A stretch of 36,668 nt of DNA from Desulfuromonas sp. (GTDB lineage: Bacteria > Desulfobacterota > Desulfuromonadia > Desulfuromonadales > Geopsychrobacteraceae). Every line of letters begins with the position of its first letter. The stretch's first letter is position 1. This document shows positions 26,573-36,410 of the stretch, piece by piece. The notes beneath the pieces are model-generated. The model saw only the letters and a program-made list of their open reading frames with translations, was not told where the DNA came from and made no database searches. The position numbers and the translations under genes are program-made. The stretch covers positions 1 to 36,668 of the forward strand of contig PKUG01000099.1 in NCBI GenBank assembly GCA_002869665.1, written 5' to 3'.

Positions 26573-27090
26573 TCAGGCCGTTCCCTCCAGGTACTCGCTG
26601 ACGGGCAGCATGCGCCACTGGCTGCGCCCTTTCAGCTCCAGCACGTTGTCGTGGAAATTGATGATCGTCGGGCGATGGCCGACGCTGATGTAGTGGATGC
26701 CCAGCTGTTGCAGCTGGTGATAGAGGTTGGCTTCATTCGTCACGTCGAGGGCGCTGGTCGCCTCATCGAGCACGGCATAGGCCGGGCGGTTGACGAGCAG
26801 GCGGGCGAAGGCCAGGCGTTGCTGCTCGCCGAGGGAGAGGACATCGGCCCAGTCGAGTTCGACGTTGTAGCCGCCGACCCGTTCGGGCAGATCAGCCCGG
26901 CGACGATCAGGAAGAGCACGCCGAAGAGCAGGACCAGCAGCATGCAGAGCAGCAGCAGGGTTGTCCAGGCGCCGCCACGAATCCGCGGGAAAAAATAGGG
27001 TTGGGCAATGGCAACGAAACTTTTCCAGAGGGCGGGTTGCTGCTGCGGGGTGTGCTCGGGGGGCTGATTCTGTCTCCGACTTTTTCAAAA
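26573..27090 (-). pseudogene. Gutted SbmA/YddA-type ABC transporter gene
   Basis: The C-terminal half of an ABC ATPase is clear: signature LSLGEQQRLAFARLLV, Walker B AYAVLDEATSALD, switch His in SVGHRPTI. This matches the SbmA/BacA/YddA type that joins membrane and nucleotide-binding domains in one chain. The upstream part, in another frame, encodes the usual start of such a protein (SFVAIAQPYFFP, then one transmembrane segment LLVLLFGVLFLIVAGLI). The remaining membrane region and Walker A, several hundred residues in all, are missing. The two parts are joined near 26893. A further frame change falls at a six-C run near 27055-27060. It cannot make a working transporter. Confidence 0.8.
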
Positions 27091-28478: not shown

Positions 28479-29855
28479 TCAGGCTGTGGACTGTCCGCTT
28501 TCCGGTGTGGGGCGCAGGCGTTTGAGACAGAGGCCGGAGAGGAGGAAGGTCGCGGAGAAGAGCAGCGGGGTGGTAATCCCCCAGACGACCAGGGCCTGCA
28601 GGTTGGCCTGCCAGAACTGCTGGAGAAAGAGGCCGGGGGAGTGGCTTAGCAGTTCCGTCAGCCGCTCCGTATCGTTCGGCAGTAGATGGGTGGCAAAGAA
28701 TCGTTCGCCACCAATGAAAAACGGGACGAAGAGACTGATATGCAGCGGCAGGGTGAGGCAATTGGCGAGCTGGACGACCGCCTGGTTCCAGCGCAGCAGC
28801 GCGGCCAGGAGAATGCAGAGCAGGCTGGTCCCCCAGATCACGGGCATGACGCCGACGGTCGCGCCGAGGAACGAGCGGACCTTGATATCTGTTTCCACCA
28901 GCGGGGTGTGAAACCCGGCAGTAAACCGGCTGAGCACATCCCGGCGCTGACGATTCTGCAGCAGATCGGCGGCGAAGTTGATGCGCCCCTTTTCGAACAG
29001 CAGCAGGTCGGTGCTGCTCCCCTGGCGGTAGAGGCTCTTGGGGCACCCCTTGTCGAGGAACATGCCGACGCGGATCGGTTGCGGATCATCGTAATTCCGG
29101 GCGCTGTAGCACTGGACGATCTCACCGATCATCAGGGCGACGATCTCGACCATCGCCACGATCCCGACCCCGGTGCCGCCGGCGACATCGGTGTCGATGA
29201 TGGTGACGACGCGGCGGTTCTTGGAGCAGGGGGTGGCTTCGCGGATGATCGCCTGCGGATTACAGGAGTGGAAACGGCCATCAATCACGTAATAATCGAT
29301 CACCTCCCCGGCGACTGGGGTGTGGTTGTAGTGGTACTTGTCCGGGGTCAGGCGGAAGAGGGCGAAGTCGCCGTTGCGAAACACGTCCAGCCAGTCTGTT
29401 TGCTCCTCGCCGAGCAGGTTGGGATAGGAGAAAAACTTGTCCTTGATGTTGAGGCCGGTGATTTCGCCCAGTGAACCGACGATCACCCGGGCGTCGGCCG
29501 GGTAGACGACGGATTGGTTACCGGTGGCCAGCGGGCGGCACTCCCAGTAGCGGATCTTGCGCTCGAAGACCTTGCGCGCCGTGTCCAGCGCTTCCGGCGG
29601 GTCAAGGCATTCGCGCAGATCGACCCCCGCTTCGCGCAGGAAGCGATCGTTCCCCAGCACCCTGGTCGACAGCGCCAGGTCGTAATTGAAGAACCCGAGC
29701 GCCCGGGTCGCCCCGGCGCCGGTCAGCAGGCGGAACAACTGGGGGGCGTTCTCGCGCACCGGGTGATAAAGCCAGCGGACGATGCGGTCGCTGAACAGCG
29801 GTTCGTTACAGACTCGACCGGTATGTCGGCTGATGTATTGATGTGTTCCGTCCAT
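28479..29855 (-). CDS. Phosphatidylserine decarboxylase fused to DUF2062 membrane domain
   Basis: A 458-residue fusion from the ATG at 29855 (GAGGA six bases before). Residues 1-300 match phosphatidylserine decarboxylase: the YISRHTGRV opening, D121 in PADARVIV, the RLTPDKYHYNHTPVAGEV histidine box (H178) and the self-cleavage region QGSSTDLLLF (GSS 279-281) that would create the pyruvoyl group. Residues about 322-450 have the DUF2062 pattern FLGATVGVMPVIWGTSLLCI with about three membrane segments, which would tether the enzyme. The usual LGST reads QGSS, as in some VGSS-type enzymes. The first 50 bp overlap the upstream 823-residue gene. No phosphatidylserine synthase gene is in the window. 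Confidence 0.85.
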   Translation of the reverse strand: MDGTHQYISRHTGRVCNEPLFSDRIVRWLYHPVRENAPQLFRLLTGAGATRALGFFNYDLALSTRVLGNDRFLREAGVDLRECLDPPEALDTARKVFERKIRYWECRPLATGNQSVVYPADARVIVGSLGEITGLNIKDKFFSYPNLLGEEQTDWLDVFRNGDFALFRLTPDKYHYNHTPVAGEVIDYYVIDGRFHSCNPQAIIREATPCSKNRRVVTIIDTDVAGGTGVGIVAMVEIVALMIGEIVQCYSARNYDDPQPIRVGMFLDKGCPKSLYRQGSSTDLLLFEKGRINFAADLLQNRQRRDVLSRFTAGFHTPLVETDIKVRSFLGATVGVMPVIWGTSLLCILLAALLRWNQAVVQLANCLTLPLHISLFVPFFIGGERFFATHLLPNDTERLTELLSHSPGLFLQQFWQANLQALVVWGITTPLLFSATFLLSGLCLKRLRPTPESGQSTA

Positions 29856-32277
29856 GATTGTCCTCGGGTAAAGAGAGTTCCGGCGGGATGTTCCGGCGTT
29901 CATACTTTTCGATCAGCAGCATCAGGTTGAGCAGCCGCTTGAGCGGCTGGATGCCGAGCTCATCGTTCATCAGGTCGCTTTCGATCAGGCGGCAGAAATC
30001 GGCCGCGCTCTTTCCCGCCATCAGTTGGTCCAGCAGCTGGCGCAGTTCGGCGGCGACCGGGCCCGGATCGTTTTCGAGGGTCCGCAGATCGGTGCGCAAC
30101 AGGGTCAAGCCCTGGCGCATGTGTTCGCGGCGCAGGGTCTCCCGGTAGTAGGTTTCGGCCTGGCGGTTGAAAGCGTCGGCGTCCACGCGTAATGGGCGCC
30201 CTTCAGCGTGACCGACGATGCCGCGCACCAGGCGTCCGGCGGCGGCCCGGCTCTCCGGATAGTCGAGGCGCGCTTCGAGGTCGCCGAGCAGCTCGCCGAA
30301 GCCGAACATCTCGATCAGTTCGGCGCCGTCTTCGCGCAGCAGCGCGAGCAGCGCACGGCAGTAGTCTTCGCGGTAGATGCGCAGGTAGCCGGGGTAGCGC
30401 CGGCTGGCACGTATCCGCGCGGTGCGCCTGAGAATCTTCAGCAGAAAGCGGTTACGGGTGTTTTTCTGAACGTAGAAGGTCGGCACCCCCGCCGCTGAGG
30501 CGAAGAAAATCTGCCGCCGTTCGCTCTCGATCACCGGTGAATCGGGGATGTGGCGGTGGCGTACCTGCCCCGCGGCGATGTACTTGAAGGCGAGGGCGGT
30601 GATCAGGGCCTGGAGATTGGTGGCTGCGCCGAGATCCTCGGCCAGCTCGGGGAAGAGGCTGTAATGGCGTCCCTCGAAGCCGCTGAACCCCATCCCGGCG
30701 AAATCGCGCAGCTTGATGAACTGGTAGAGCGACATCTGGCGGTCGAATACCCCCATATCGGCGAGGTCTTCCTTGAGCTGCTCCTGGTTGCCGGGCAGGC
30801 CGTTATAGGCCGGGCTTTCATCGGTGCTGAGGAAACAGACCGGGTAATCGAGCAGGCGGAAATCGGGCACCAGGTCACCGCGCAGGCGGAAAGTGCGGCT
30901 CAGCAGGTGATCGAGCCCGGCCGGGCCGAAGGGGGTCAGGGCATGACCGAAGACTTTAAGGTCGGCCTTCTTCTTCCAGCGTCGCCAGAGCATGCGCAGG
31001 TGGGTGAAGTCGAGCTGGTGCGGCAGGAAACCGAGGGCTTTCTCCGGATGGAACTCCTCGAACCCCAGGCGGTAGGGGGCGGCGCTGTAGCTGTTGACGA
31101 ACAGCGGCAGAAAATGCTCCATGATCTTGGTCGCCAGATCGCCGAGATACTTTTCGCAGATTTCCGCCTGCCTGCCGCCACCGGCACAGGCGGCGCTCAG
31201 GCGCTTGCTGCCGAGGCTGATGTGAACGCCGTTGTTGGCCAGGCTGGTGTTGGAGAAGTTGGGGAGCACGACCAGGTTGTTGACGATGATCCCCGCTTCG
31301 CGCAGCTTGCCGACGGCGTTCATCTGGCTGCGGCTGAGAACCTGATGGCAGAGGTGCATGTAGGCGTGCTTCTTCTCCCCCTCGTCCCAGCCGGAGAGAC
31401 AGGGGCTCATGAACAGCTGGCGGTAGAAGGCGTCGGGGATCAGGTTGTTCAGGCGTTTTTGTTGCTGCGGTGAATGGGGGGCGAAATAGACGCGCGCCTC
31501 CTGGCCGTTTTCGAGCAGGCCGAAATTGAGGTTGGCGTAACGTACCAGCAGCTGGGTGAAGAGAAAACGGCGCGCCGTTTCCCCGCCCAGTTGCCGCCCC
31601 ATGCCACGGCGCGGCGCCAGGTGCGAGACATGAAAGGAGAAGGTTTCAGGCGAGCTGTTATCGTTGAGAAAGTGGCCGAGCAGCGATTCGGCGACCGGGT
31701 TGAGGTTGTCGCGCTGCTCCGGTTGGTTGCCGATCAGGTCGGCCAGGGCGAGCTTGATCAGGTAGCTGACCGGCAGGCGCAACCAGGGTTCCCCCCTGCT
31801 GCCGGTGAACTGAAAGCGGTCGACGTCGCTACGCAGACCACCCTCGGGGAGACGCTTGTCGGCCAGCAGGTCGCGCAGGAAGACCTGGGCGGCATAACGC
31901 GAGAGACGCCGATCCTCAAAGCGCACCCAGCTGTTTTCCCAGACCTGCTGGGCTTCGTCGTGGATCAGTTCATGGAGTTCGGCGAACAGCCGTTCCGGCG
32001 CCTCGCCGTTGAGGGTGCGGCGCTGCAGGTTGCCGAAGGCGCGCGATTCACGGATCGCCAGCGGCAGGTCGACGCGGTCGCAGCGGCCGATGACCACGGC
32101 CTGGAGCTCGGTTTCCGAGCCGGCGGTAATATCCTCTGCGCCGAAGGGGCGCAGCGCGTCGTTGTTGCCGTTCGCCGCGCCGAAGCCAAAAAATTCAGCG
32201 CAGCGTTCGGGGTCGATCAGCGGGTCGCGTTGCCTGTGTTCCGCAGCGATTAGATTAAGAAATGTTTTTCCGTTCAA
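29806..32277 (-). CDS. Large protein of unknown function (823 residues)
   Basis: I do not recognise a family. The chain has no signal peptide and no clear membrane span, so it is probably cytoplasmic. It contains conserved-looking blocks: FFGFGAANGNND near residue 30, ELHELIHDEAQQVW near 105, NNGVHISLGSKRLSAACAGGG near 350-370, and YRLGFEEFHPEKALGFLPHQLDF near 405-425. The final 150 residues are charged and helical. The frame is open for 2.5 kb with a codon pattern like its neighbours, so it is clearly coding. The stop lies 50 bp inside the PSD-DUF2062 gene, so the two must be coupled; this suggests a role with that lipid enzyme. It is divergent from the FRG gene. Confidence 0.85.
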   Translation of the reverse strand: MNGKTFLNLIAAEHRQRDPLIDPERCAEFFGFGAANGNNDALRPFGAEDITAGSETELQAVVIGRCDRVDLPLAIRESRAFGNLQRRTLNGEAPERLFAELHELIHDEAQQVWENSWVRFEDRRLSRYAAQVFLRDLLADKRLPEGGLRSDVDRFQFTGSRGEPWLRLPVSYLIKLALADLIGNQPEQRDNLNPVAESLLGHFLNDNSSPETFSFHVSHLAPRRGMGRQLGGETARRFLFTQLLVRYANLNFGLLENGQEARVYFAPHSPQQQKRLNNLIPDAFYRQLFMSPCLSGWDEGEKKHAYMHLCHQVLSRSQMNAVGKLREAGIIVNNLVVLPNFSNTSLANNGVHISLGSKRLSAACAGGGRQAEICEKYLGDLATKIMEHFLPLFVNSYSAAPYRLGFEEFHPEKALGFLPHQLDFTHLRMLWRRWKKKADLKVFGHALTPFGPAGLDHLLSRTFRLRGDLVPDFRLLDYPVCFLSTDESPAYNGLPGNQEQLKEDLADMGVFDRQMSLYQFIKLRDFAGMGFSGFEGRHYSLFPELAEDLGAATNLQALITALAFKYIAAGQVRHRHIPDSPVIESERRQIFFASAAGVPTFYVQKNTRNRFLLKILRRTARIRASRRYPGYLRIYREDYCRALLALLREDGAELIEMFGFGELLGDLEARLDYPESRAAAGRLVRGIVGHAEGRPLRVDADAFNRQAETYYRETLRREHMRQGLTLLRTDLRTLENDPGPVAAELRQLLDQLMAGKSAADFCRLIESDLMNDELGIQPLKRLLNLMLLIEKYERRNIPPELSLPEDNHGRNTSIHQPTYRSSL

Positions 32278-32447
32278 ACAGTCCCTCCGGGCTTCTTTTC
32301 GCAGGCATCCTGGCAGGGCACTGTTGGCGCTGAATGACCGTTCTGTCAGAAACAGATGTTCCCCTGTTTGCGGCGACTGACCGAATCCTCACATTTCCCA
32401 CATCGCCGGCAAACCTTGCTCCGGCTTGATGTTGGACCGAGGTGGCT

Positions 32448-33269
32448 ATGAATCAGGTCAGGGTGACAAGCTGGGGTCAATTGCAGGAGGAGTTGTTTGC
32501 CGACTCCTGGAGCGCCGATATCGGCCGCTTCCGTTCCCGTTATGCCTTTCGCGGCCTCTCCGACGCCGACTACCGGCTGGAAACCACCCTGATGCGTCTC
32601 GGCGGCGACTTCGCGCCCCTTGAACGCCACCTGCTGCGCAATTTCAAGAAATACGCCCGCCGCAACGTGGTCGAGCAGGATTCGCTCTGGCACTGGCTGT
32701 CGGTGGCGCAGCATTACGGCCTGCCGACCCGGCTGCTTGACTGGACCTATTCCCCTTACGTCGCCCTCCACTTCGCCACTGCCAACCTCGAACGCTTCGC
32801 CCTCGACGGGGCGATCTGGGCGGTCAACTATCTCAAGGCCCACCAGTTGCTGCCGGAGCTGCTGCGCGCCAAGCTCGACGAGGAAGGGGCCAACGTCTTC
32901 ACCGTCGAAATGCTCGCCGAGACCATCACCAGCCAGACCGAGTTCGAGCACCTTGAAGAGAACGACTACACACTCTTCTTCGAGCCCCCCTCAATCGACG
33001 ACCGGATCATCAACCAGTTCGGTTTCTTCTCGGTCATGCCGCGTGCGCAGAGCATTCTCGATGTCTGGCTGGAGCGCCACCCCGAACTCTGGCGCCGGAT
33101 CATCATCCCCGCCGAACTCAAATGGGAAATCCGCGACAAACTCGACCAGGCCAATATCACCGAGCGCGTGCTCTTCCCCGGCCTCGACGGTCTGAGCCAC
33201 TGGCTGAAGCGGCACTACAGTCCGAAGAGCGACGCCCTGCCGGTGCGCCTGGTGGCGAATCGGCCGTAG
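32448..33269 (+). CDS. FRG-domain protein
   Basis: A 273-residue soluble protein from the ATG at 32448 (GAGG five bases before; a GTG two codons earlier is in frame). The FRG domain is clear: YAFRGLSDADYRLETTLMR, then LWHWLSVAQHYGLPTRLLDW and SPYVALHFATANL. FRG domains are named for their Phe-Arg-Gly motif and occur in phage, toxin-antitoxin and defence-island proteins, but their biochemistry is not well defined. Here it stands alone, divergent from the 823-residue gene with a 170-bp shared promoter region. There is no toxin, methylase or nuclease partner, and no sign of a defence island. Confidence 0.88.
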   Translation: MNQVRVTSWGQLQEELFADSWSADIGRFRSRYAFRGLSDADYRLETTLMRLGGDFAPLERHLLRNFKKYARRNVVEQDSLWHWLSVAQHYGLPTRLLDWTYSPYVALHFATANLERFALDGAIWAVNYLKAHQLLPELLRAKLDEEGANVFTVEMLAETITSQTEFEHLEENDYTLFFEPPSIDDRIINQFGFFSVMPRAQSILDVWLERHPELWRRIIIPAELKWEIRDKLDQANITERVLFPGLDGLSHWLKRHYSPKSDALPVRLVANRP

Positions 33270-33755: not shown

Positions 33756-33980
33756 TGTTTTCCGTTTCCTTCAGTCTTCATGGTTATTTTGTTGCCGCCA
33801 TATAACTGTAGCGATGCGAGGAGGGAATAAGAGAAATATTAGCTTTGCGTGAGGTTGACGAGTAAAAATGTCAAGAAATTGAAAGGTTGGCATATCGGCA
33901 AACATGAAATCCTGATCAGCCGCTCACCGGAACTTAACCGCACAAGGTTAAACCGTGCGCAAAAAAGAACGGAGAGCGAT

Positions 33981-36410
33981 ATGGCCAAAGTTGACCTGCA
34001 CGTCCACTCGAAATATTCTAACCACCCCTCCGAATGGTTTCTTCAGCGTCTCGGCGCTTCGGAATCCTACACCGAGCCGGAGGTCGTCTATCAGACCGCC
34101 CGCCAGCGGGGGATGGATTTTGTCACCATCACCGATCACAACTGCATGCGCGCCTCGCTGGAACTGGTCGAGAGCCACCCGGAGCACTGCTTCACCGGGG
34201 TCGAGGCGACCGCCTACTTCCCCGAGGACGGCTGCAAGATTCATATTCTGATTTATGGTCTGACCCGCGAGCAGTTTGCCGTGATCCAGAAGCTGCGCCG
34301 TAATATCTACCAGCTGCGCGCCTATCTTCTTGAACAGGACCTGGCCTGCGTGGTTGCCCATGCCACCTACTCGATCAACGGCCGCCTGACCCTGGCGCAC
34401 CTGGAAAAGCTGATCCTGCTGTTCAACAACTTCGAGGGGCGCAACGGCAGCCGCAGCACTCTGCACAACGATGTCCTGGCCCGCGTTCTGAAGGGGCTGA
34501 CCCCGGCCGATATCCATCGCCTGCAGGAGCGTCACGGCATTGAGCCCTGGGGCCCCAACCCCTGGGAAAAAGGGTTGACCGGTGGCTCGGATGATCACGC
34601 CGGGATCTTCATCGGTAAAACCTGCACCGCAGCCATTGCCGCCAACCCGCAGGAGTTTCTCTGTCGCCTGAAGGGGCGGCGGATGGAACCGCAGGGGCGT
34701 CAGAACGACTTCCAGGGGCTGACCTTCGCCATCTACAAGATCGCCTACGATTTCTCCCGTCAGCACAGCACCCCCTTTGCCCAGTCGGCGATCAGCGACC
34801 TGACCCGCCAGCTGTTCAGCGGGGACCAGAAGCTCAGCTTTCGCGAGCGGCTGAAGCTGAACAAGATGAAGCGCCAGAAAGAGAACCCGATCTACCAGAG
34901 CATCGCCCGCCTGATCGAAGCCAGCCGCGATCTCGACCAGGACGACATCGACAGCCGTCTCGACCTGCTCTACGAGTGCATCAGCGATGTTTCCGACCAG
35001 TATTTCCGCAGCCTGCTTGCGCCGCTGAACGCCGATATCGAGGAGATGGATATCCTGCGCATCATCCAGGGGCTGTCGTCGACGATCCCCGGGATCTTCC
35101 TCTCGGTCCCCTTCTTCACCTCGTTCCGCCACATGTTCGGCGATCGTGAGCTGATCGCCAGCCTCGAGCAGAGCCTCGGCAAGCAGGAGTCTAGCCGCAG
35201 CAAACGGATTCTCTGGCTCACCGACACCCTGACCGATCTCAACGGCGTCTCGATGACGCTGCAGACGATCGGCCGCCTGGCCGATGAGAAGGGGTACGAC
35301 ATCCGCATTCTCGCCAGCCTTGATGAGGTCGGCGACGAACTGCCGCGGGCGACCCTGGCGGTGCCGCCGATTCATGAATTCCGCCTGCCGCACTACGAGC
35401 AGCTGCACATCAAGGTCCCCTCGGTGCTGCGCATGCTCAAGGCGGTTTACAGCTACCAGCCGGACGAGGTCTACATTTCCACCCCCGGCCCCGTCGGTCT
35501 GCTCGGTCTGATGATGGGGAAGATGCTCGGGGTGAAGGTGAGCGGCATCTACCACACCGACTTCACCCTCGAAGCCGAGGCGATCATCGACGAACCGGCA
35601 ATCGGGCACATGATCGAGAGCTACAACAAGTGGTTCTTCAACCAGTTCGACACCCTGCTGGTGCCGACCGCCGAGTACATGCAGTTGCTCAAAGAGCGTG
35701 GCTACCGCTACCGCCACATGCAGCGCTTCCGCCGTGGGCTGCGCACCGAGCACTTCTTCCCGGCGGCGGTGCGCCGGCAGCCCGACGGCAAGCGGCCGCG
35801 GCTGCTTTATGTCGGCCGCGTCTCCAAGGACAAAAACCTCGACTTCCTCCAGAGCGTCTACCGCGGCCTGCTGGAAAAGTATCCCGAAGCGGCGCTGACC
35901 CTGGTTGGAGACGGCCCCTATCTGGATGAGCTGAAACGCCAGTGCCGCGACCTGCCGCGCGTCGAGTTCCTCGGCCGCGTCGCCTACAGCGACCTGCCGC
36001 AGGTCTACAACGAGCACGACATCTTCCTCTTCCCGAGCACGACCGACACCTTCGGCATGGCGGTTCTCGAAGCCCAGGCCTGCGCCCTGCCGGCACTGGT
36101 GTCCGATGTCGGCGGCCCCAAGGAGATCGTCGCCGCCGGTGAGACCGGCCATGTCCTGCCGGTGAATGATCCCGAGCGTTGGGTTGCAGTCCTCGACGGC
36201 CTGCTCAGCGACCTGGGCAACGGCGGCGCGGAATACACCCGGATCGGTCGGGCCGCGCGGAGCAGGGTCGAAGAACTCTACAGCTGGGACAGCATCCTCC
36301 ACAACATGGTCGATGCGAACGGCGATGAACTGCTCAGCCCCAGTCGGGGGCGCCACCAGTCCTCCATCAAGCGCCTGCTGCGTCTGGCGTCGGGGATGAT
36401 GGTCTACTGA
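33981..36410 (+). CDS. PHP-domain/GT4 glycosyltransferase fusion
   Basis: An 809-residue two-domain protein from the ATG at 33981 (GGAGAG upstream); the frame opens 44 codons earlier without a start signal. A PHP phosphoesterase domain fills about residues 1-280: metal-binding DLHVHSKYSNHPSE (H7, H9), TDHN near 52, and a later TGGSDDHAG motif. A helical spacer follows. A GT-B, GT4-type glycosyltransferase occupies about 410-800, with YHTDFTLEAE, RPRLLYVGRVSKDKNLDFL, LVGDGPYLDELKR and the retaining-GT motif PSTTDTFGMAVLEAQACALP. Membrane glycolipid or polysaccharide synthesis is likely. The next gene makes nucleotide-sugar acids, consistent with that role. Confidence 0.93.
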   Translation: MAKVDLHVHSKYSNHPSEWFLQRLGASESYTEPEVVYQTARQRGMDFVTITDHNCMRASLELVESHPEHCFTGVEATAYFPEDGCKIHILIYGLTREQFAVIQKLRRNIYQLRAYLLEQDLACVVAHATYSINGRLTLAHLEKLILLFNNFEGRNGSRSTLHNDVLARVLKGLTPADIHRLQERHGIEPWGPNPWEKGLTGGSDDHAGIFIGKTCTAAIAANPQEFLCRLKGRRMEPQGRQNDFQGLTFAIYKIAYDFSRQHSTPFAQSAISDLTRQLFSGDQKLSFRERLKLNKMKRQKENPIYQSIARLIEASRDLDQDDIDSRLDLLYECISDVSDQYFRSLLAPLNADIEEMDILRIIQGLSSTIPGIFLSVPFFTSFRHMFGDRELIASLEQSLGKQESSRSKRILWLTDTLTDLNGVSMTLQTIGRLADEKGYDIRILASLDEVGDELPRATLAVPPIHEFRLPHYEQLHIKVPSVLRMLKAVYSYQPDEVYISTPGPVGLLGLMMGKMLGVKVSGIYHTDFTLEAEAIIDEPAIGHMIESYNKWFFNQFDTLLVPTAEYMQLLKERGYRYRHMQRFRRGLRTEHFFPAAVRRQPDGKRPRLLYVGRVSKDKNLDFLQSVYRGLLEKYPEAALTLVGDGPYLDELKRQCRDLPRVEFLGRVAYSDLPQVYNEHDIFLFPSTTDTFGMAVLEAQACALPALVSDVGGPKEIVAAGETGHVLPVNDPERWVAVLDGLLSDLGNGGAEYTRIGRAARSRVEELYSWDSILHNMVDANGDELLSPSRGRHQSSIKRLLRLASGMMVY

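Follow-up and report, generated by a model that had tools for sequence, protein, structure and literature searches.

The window, the whole 36,668-nucleotide (nt) stretch of Desulfuromonas sp. DNA analyzed here, encodes on its minus strand a 458-amino-acid protein in which a complete phosphatidylserine decarboxylase (PSD) paralogue is fused in frame to a truncated DUF2062-like membrane domain (28479..29855). This lineage-specific fusion probably arose when part of a conserved operon was deleted in frame, a single event of ~1.1 kb being its simplest origin. An earlier sequence-only reading had delimited the open reading frame (ORF) and the in-frame fusion exactly, leaving the strand unstated. 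The gene starts with an ATG at 29855, with GAGG upstream, and overlaps the upstream ORF (29806-32277, 823 codons) by 50 nt. Its PSD half (28872..29855, minus strand, residues 1-328) ends at the conserved tail VETDIKVRS, and its membrane half (28482..28865, minus strand, residues 331-458) lacks the N-terminal ~25 residues of standalone relatives; at the junction (28851..28874, minus strand, residues 328-335, SFLGATVG), the PSD tail directly joins the truncated domain. The GC3 values of the two halves are 0.83 and 0.82.

A domain search of the 458-residue protein recovers both parts named by the sequence-only reading. Pfam PS_Dcarbxylase (PF02666) occupies residues 95-304 with E 6.5e-33 and 114.5 bits, against a curated cut-off of 22. 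Within this half, D121, H175, H178, G279, and S280 are invariant in 81/81 PSD sequences, in agreement with the claim that the Asp, His, and Ser-cleavage region are kept. The predicted self-cleavage site, Q278-G279/S280-S281-T282 (29010..29024, minus strand), carries a glutamine found in the window alone, P278 being present in all 80 other PSD sequences. The bacterial-PSD signature LGST, as worded in PMC7952604, is replaced by QGSS in the window and by PGS in 80/80 relatives. The motif QGSS had thus been read correctly from sequence, but its contrast with LGST was overstated, because the clade norm is PGSS and the unusual residue is a single Q for P. None of the curated PSD equivalogs of NCBIfam reaches its cut-off, the best score being 110.5 bits versus 371, and with so large a shortfall the substrate may not be phosphatidylserine. 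As judged from its invariant residues, the PSD half is most likely still self-cleaving and pyruvoyl-forming: it would fold, cleave itself between G279 and S280, and form the pyruvoyl group. If cleaved, the pyruvoyl-bearing alpha subunit would end in the DUF2062-like domain, which would hold it in the membrane, and would measure about 179 residues in the fusion versus about 60.

The second half matches Pfam DUF2062 (PF09835) over residues 329-431 with E 0.0014 and 19.1 bits, under the cut-off of 27.4 bits, and the fragment scanned alone, at 22.3 bits, still falls short. The match spans profile positions 26-125 of 147, that is, most of the domain, which indicates homology. The weak score is not due to chance, because the same residues strongly match the separate DUF2062-like proteins of relatives, with up to 54% identity and E down to 1.6e-34; the appended domain is therefore DUF2062-like as proposed, even though it stays below the Pfam cut-off. 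Intact standalone relatives exceed this cut-off in 3/3 cases scanned, and PF09835 is matched at E <= 0.01 in 30/30 members of the DUF2062-like alignment. Hydropathy delineates three hydrophobic regions, at residues 328-357, 359-384, and 419-445. That the C-terminal part might be ordinary PSD sequence is ruled out, since the PSD ends at VRS and the remainder aligns with DUF2062-like proteins. Indeed, the conserved region ends at VRS in all 10 PSD proteins of the clade (10/10), and the window PSD tracks the clade up to this point (residue 328) before resuming inside the DUF2062-like domain. In the structural model of the fusion, residues 321-335 are predicted to cross the junction as one helix, with pLDDT of 73-94 per ten-residue block over residues 331-440 and lower values past 440. 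The PSD part is poorly modeled (mean pLDDT 54.1), because the underlying alignment held just four PSD rows besides the fused protein, P0001; in fold comparisons, matches to the model do not exceed Z 4.3, lie largely in its helical part, and are uninformative.

In relatives, the two parts are separate genes. A search of 41 related genomes with the fused protein matched 11, 10 of them other than the source genome. In nine of these 10, the PSD part forms its own ORF (up to residue ~345), and six of the nine also match a DUF2062-sized ORF (from residue ~324-329); in five it is at a distance of 1.1-1.2 kb, and G022 has it on another contig. The remaining genome, G030, matches the DUF2062 part only. 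The gene lying between the two ORFs is Lgt-like (prolipoprotein diacylglyceryl transferase family, PF01790, E 1e-9, one member scanned). Among 80 named loci, the best 80 of 328 candidate relatives, a gene of ~820 codons for the upstream protein sits within 400 nt upstream of the PSD in 78, the Lgt-like gene lies downstream within 400 nt in 74, farther in five, and is not found in one, and no PSD-DUF2062 fusion occurs (0/80). At the order level, 36/136 genomes match P0001, with a whole-length match in the source genome alone; no further fusion was found among the 32 order genomes with a PSD, a count that leaves out G030, G042, G063, and G067 (DUF2062 only, split, weak, and 30%-identity match). 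Across 395 phylum genomes, the PSD is present in 44 (leaving out G384, at 30% identity), the 820-aa protein in 44, and the Lgt-like protein in 43, and the source genome is again the only one of the 44 PSD-bearing genomes with a fusion. The PSD and Lgt-like sets differ by a single genome, the source genome, which is without the Lgt-like gene. All three proteins occur together in 42/45 phylum genomes holding any of them. The other three are the source genome, which lacks the Lgt-like gene, G253, in which the 820-aa protein finds no match, and G461, where the 820-aa protein alone is present, at a contig end. The locus and genome sets overlap, G010 and L033, for instance, being apparently the same record, so that these counts are not independent. 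Three frames of ~458-460 aa were considered as further fusions and rejected: in G114 (L115) the extra length precedes the PSD start, and the DUF2062-like match of G119 and G120 sits at a separate place. The order, phylum, and 80-locus surveys together rule out a general PSD-DUF2062 architecture, and the notion that the fusion links DUF2062 directly to head-group chemistry is not supported in that form, the fusion being a single instance that looks like a deletion scar at the former place of an Lgt-like gene. What does tie the DUF2062-like family to lipid chemistry is its operon neighborhood: in 23/80 loci, the 2 kb downstream of the PSD include a DUF2062-like gene in the same orientation, with L079 and L106 just beyond this filter.

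From the gene arrangement of the relatives, the ancestral order would have been the ligase-like 820-aa gene, PSD, Lgt-like, and DUF2062-like, and a deletion of ~1.1 kb would have removed the Lgt-like gene entirely, along with a few codons from the end of the PSD gene and ~25 from the beginning of the DUF2062-like gene. This origin is favored because relatives keep separate PSD and DUF2062-like genes with the Lgt-like gene in between, and because, in the window, the sequence runs to the conserved end of the PSD and picks up again within DUF2062. Counting against a demonstrated deletion mechanism, the two break regions share an exact repeat of at most 10 nt in 25 loci of relatives. It is conceivable, though unlikely, that the pathway died upon loss of the Lgt-like gene and that both the fused gene and the partner gene upstream of it are turning into pseudogenes, as the Lgt-like gene otherwise always accompanies the PSD (43/44 phylum genomes) and the P278Q change adjoins the cleavage site. 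Both frames, however, are open. The window PSD departs from the consensus at 2/84 near-invariant columns, and at least two departures are seen in 24/81 sequences including itself (a leave-one-out count); the 820-aa protein departs at 4/188, and at least four departures occur in 16/69 sequences. Since near-invariant sites are not changed unusually often, all catalytic residues are kept, and third codon positions look normal in both halves, there is no sign of decay, a weak indication drawn from one genome. An assembly artefact, or a strain variant in which some cells carry the deletion, with the ordinary four-gene arrangement as the true order, would account for a fusion that comes from a single draft genome (203 contigs, 88.65% complete) and recurs in none of the 80 named loci or the order and phylum samples; one draft genome offers no second copy as confirmation. 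Such an error appears improbable, as the <=10 nt shared by the break regions in those 25 loci is too short for the usual assembly collapse, the join preserves order, strand, and frame, and no Lgt-like gene occurs elsewhere in the assembly. Least credible is an adaptive fusion fixing a partnership between DUF2062 and a PSD that normally form a complex, the DUF2062 part handling or presenting lipid: the same-strand DUF2062-like gene of the operon (within 2 kb in 23/80 loci) and the surviving hydrophobic regions would suit it, but this gene is evidently not needed, because 55/80 loci have none downstream on the same strand within the stretch examined (L079 and L106 counted as having one), the fused copy is without the N-terminal stretch of standalone ones, and one fusion was found in total.

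Under the preferred deletion origin, the lost component is the Lgt-like gene. No such gene was found in the source assembly by the same phylum search that matched 43/395 genomes, and it might sit in the missing part of this incomplete genome. The source genome has one canonical Lgt. More broadly, all 32 order genomes with the PSD of this gene cassette carry a canonical Lgt, and 30/32 possess the Lgt-like protein as a second copy; it is missing from the source genome and from G072, whose PSD is at a contig end. The Lgt-like neighbors match PF01790 at E <= 0.01 in 42/43 and exceed the cut-off in 28/30 of another scan; a direct profile comparison with canonical Lgt is weak (Prob 1.4), though Pfam matches most members. 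As a separate observation, L056 (Geomesophilobacter sediminis) is the only one of the 80 loci without an Lgt-like gene within the 7 kb flank examined, and has a DUF2062-like match upstream of the cassette; it is possibly a second, independent loss.

The upstream partner (29806..32277, minus strand) is a protein of ~820 aa with a predicted gamma-glutamylcysteine-ligase-type fold; its start is uncertain, as homology begins at 32217. The protein itself matches no Pfam or NCBIfam family, no consistent one emerges among 62 members scanned, and its profile finds no meaningful match among PDB sequences. Its predicted structure (pLDDT 88.2, pTM 0.91) nevertheless ranks GshA first in a Foldseek search (E 0.016), and a second aligner superimposes the model on GshAB 3ln7 (Z 16.8, rmsd 4.3, 413 residues aligned), GshA 1v4g (Z 16.6, rmsd 4.1, 411), YbdK 1r8g (Z 14.9, rmsd 3.9, 332), and PafA 4bjr (Z 14.1, rmsd 3.8, 364). 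Members of this ligase superfamily score Z 16.8 to 9.8 against the model, type III glutamine synthetases 6.9 and 5.6, and the remaining folds <=4.7, a separation by which the 820-aa protein is predicted to share the glutamate-cysteine ligase fold. The source genome also holds three GCS2-family (gamma-glutamylcysteine ligase type) genes besides this one, on contigs C149, C27, and C47.

With its ligase-like partner, the cassette PSD most likely serves a dedicated step in a lipid pathway and not bulk PE synthesis, since nearly every genome that has it (31/32 in the order) has another PSD elsewhere. The PSD half would decarboxylate a lipid that is membrane-bound and probably serine-headed, and in the source genome the pathway would lack a dedicated Lgt-like step. 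A second housekeeping, PE-forming PSD would be compatible with the PF02666 match, the intact catalytic residues, and the E. coli PSD as nearest solved structure (E 1e-14); this role is nonetheless doubtful in view of those other PSDs, of a gene that travels with two non-housekeeping partners, and of scores under all listed curated PSD equivalog cut-offs. A gene similar to the Zn-dependent phospholipase C homologue of L074 occurs in 12/80 loci (the Pfam scan being that of the L074 copy alone), and a small methyltransferase gene is added to the cassette in one, L103. Together, the cassette proteins and these added genes indicate a lipid pathway. Speculatively, the PSD paralogue, the Lgt-like protein, and the ligase-fold protein may constitute an undescribed pathway to an unusual lipid; taken furthest, this lipid would be a thioether analogue of aminoacylated PE. 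The Lgt-like protein would transfer a phospholipid-derived diacylglycerol to the thiol group of a cysteine-type acceptor, the PSD would strip the carboxylate, and the ligase would join an amino acid via an amide bond; all three chemistries would suit such a thioether-lipid route. The window, if this pathway is true, would represent a natural deletion variant without the first step, its decarboxylase anchored by DUF2062. A literature search on PSD or Lgt in connection with ligases, operons, paralogues, or a diacylglyceryl-cysteine found no paper.

In this light the operon outweighs the fusion in interest, the latter alone being a curiosity and a natural experiment on Lgt-like loss. Three proteins of lipid or ligase chemistry stay together across much of the Desulfobacterota-type bacteria and a few others, in genomes that have further PSD and Lgt genes elsewhere; retention of the cassette beside them suggests a lipid of the membrane, or a lipid-linked modification, absent from the searched literature. 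The cassette presents a concrete, deletable three-gene target, and DUF2062-like proteins gain a lipid-metabolic context.

Several further features surround these genes. Adjoining the cassette in the window, in divergent orientation, is an FRG-domain protein (32442-33269, plus strand; PF08867, E 6.3e-31), homologues of which are near the cassette in only 2/80 loci. Beyond it, a group 1 glycosyltransferase (33849-36410, plus strand) has a long N-terminal part with a PHP-domain-like opening by eye, PHP being weakly matched in the L103 homologue; its homologues occur in the cassette flanks examined of 14/80 loci, once between the PSD and Lgt-like genes (L079). On the other side, a short ORF (26573-27088, minus strand) matches the C-terminal part only of an ABC transporter ATPase (PF00005 positions 101-137) and is possibly a gene remnant. 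A ~470-aa HAD-hydrolase-like protein sits between the PSD and Lgt-like genes in L048, L051, L065, and L102, with HAD matches in L048 and L065 and assignment by similarity to L048 in the other two. Elsewhere, the source genome encodes a separate, normal DUF2062 protein and, on another contig, a second, short PSD whose neighbor looks phosphatidylserine synthase-like by eye.

Each component can be set against a known system. For the PSD half, the nearest solved structure is E. coli PSD (PDB 7cnw / 6l06, E 1e-14), with a homologous core. The equivalents of D90, H144, H147, and the scissile Gly-Ser, whose roles follow PMC7952604, are retained; D121, H175, and H178 were mapped to the first three by alignment, and the Ser region, lying outside the alignment, was placed by motif. 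Cleavage of the E. coli enzyme is driven by D90/D142-H144-S254 (PMC7952604). In the window PSD the D142 equivalent is a lysine, K173, so that the D90 equivalent would have to serve, and PGSS (clade) or QGSS (window) stands in place of LGST. The E. coli enzyme attaches to the membrane through N-terminal helices, as described in PMC7952604, whereas a C-terminal membrane domain belongs to the window protein only. Relative to the standalone DUF2062 (PF09835) proteins of the same operon, the C-terminal half of the fusion aligns, but is without the N-terminal ~25 residues and scores under the Pfam cut-off.

Compared with Lgt (PF01790), the Lgt-like proteins keep the equivalents of Y26, R143, R239, and E243 in 76/76, as mapped by profile comparison, with Y26 placed by motif. 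They differ at N146 and E151, both invariant cysteines (76/76), and at H103, where His is found in 0/76; the signature motif GRLGNFINGELWG that accompanies this catalytic histidine is likewise absent, with a GRLACISFGCCYG-type motif instead. In E. coli Lgt, E151A/Q and H103 mutants are inactive, according to PMC4728403, and with E151 and H103 replaced, ordinary prolipoprotein transfer by the Lgt-like proteins appears doubtful. Finally, the 820-aa family has no Pfam family in common with glutamate-cysteine ligase, PafA, or YbdK, and the window member is ~300 residues longer than GshA; yet GxExE, which with further residues is invariant in 70/70 family members, is present in 6/6 GCS2 proteins as well.
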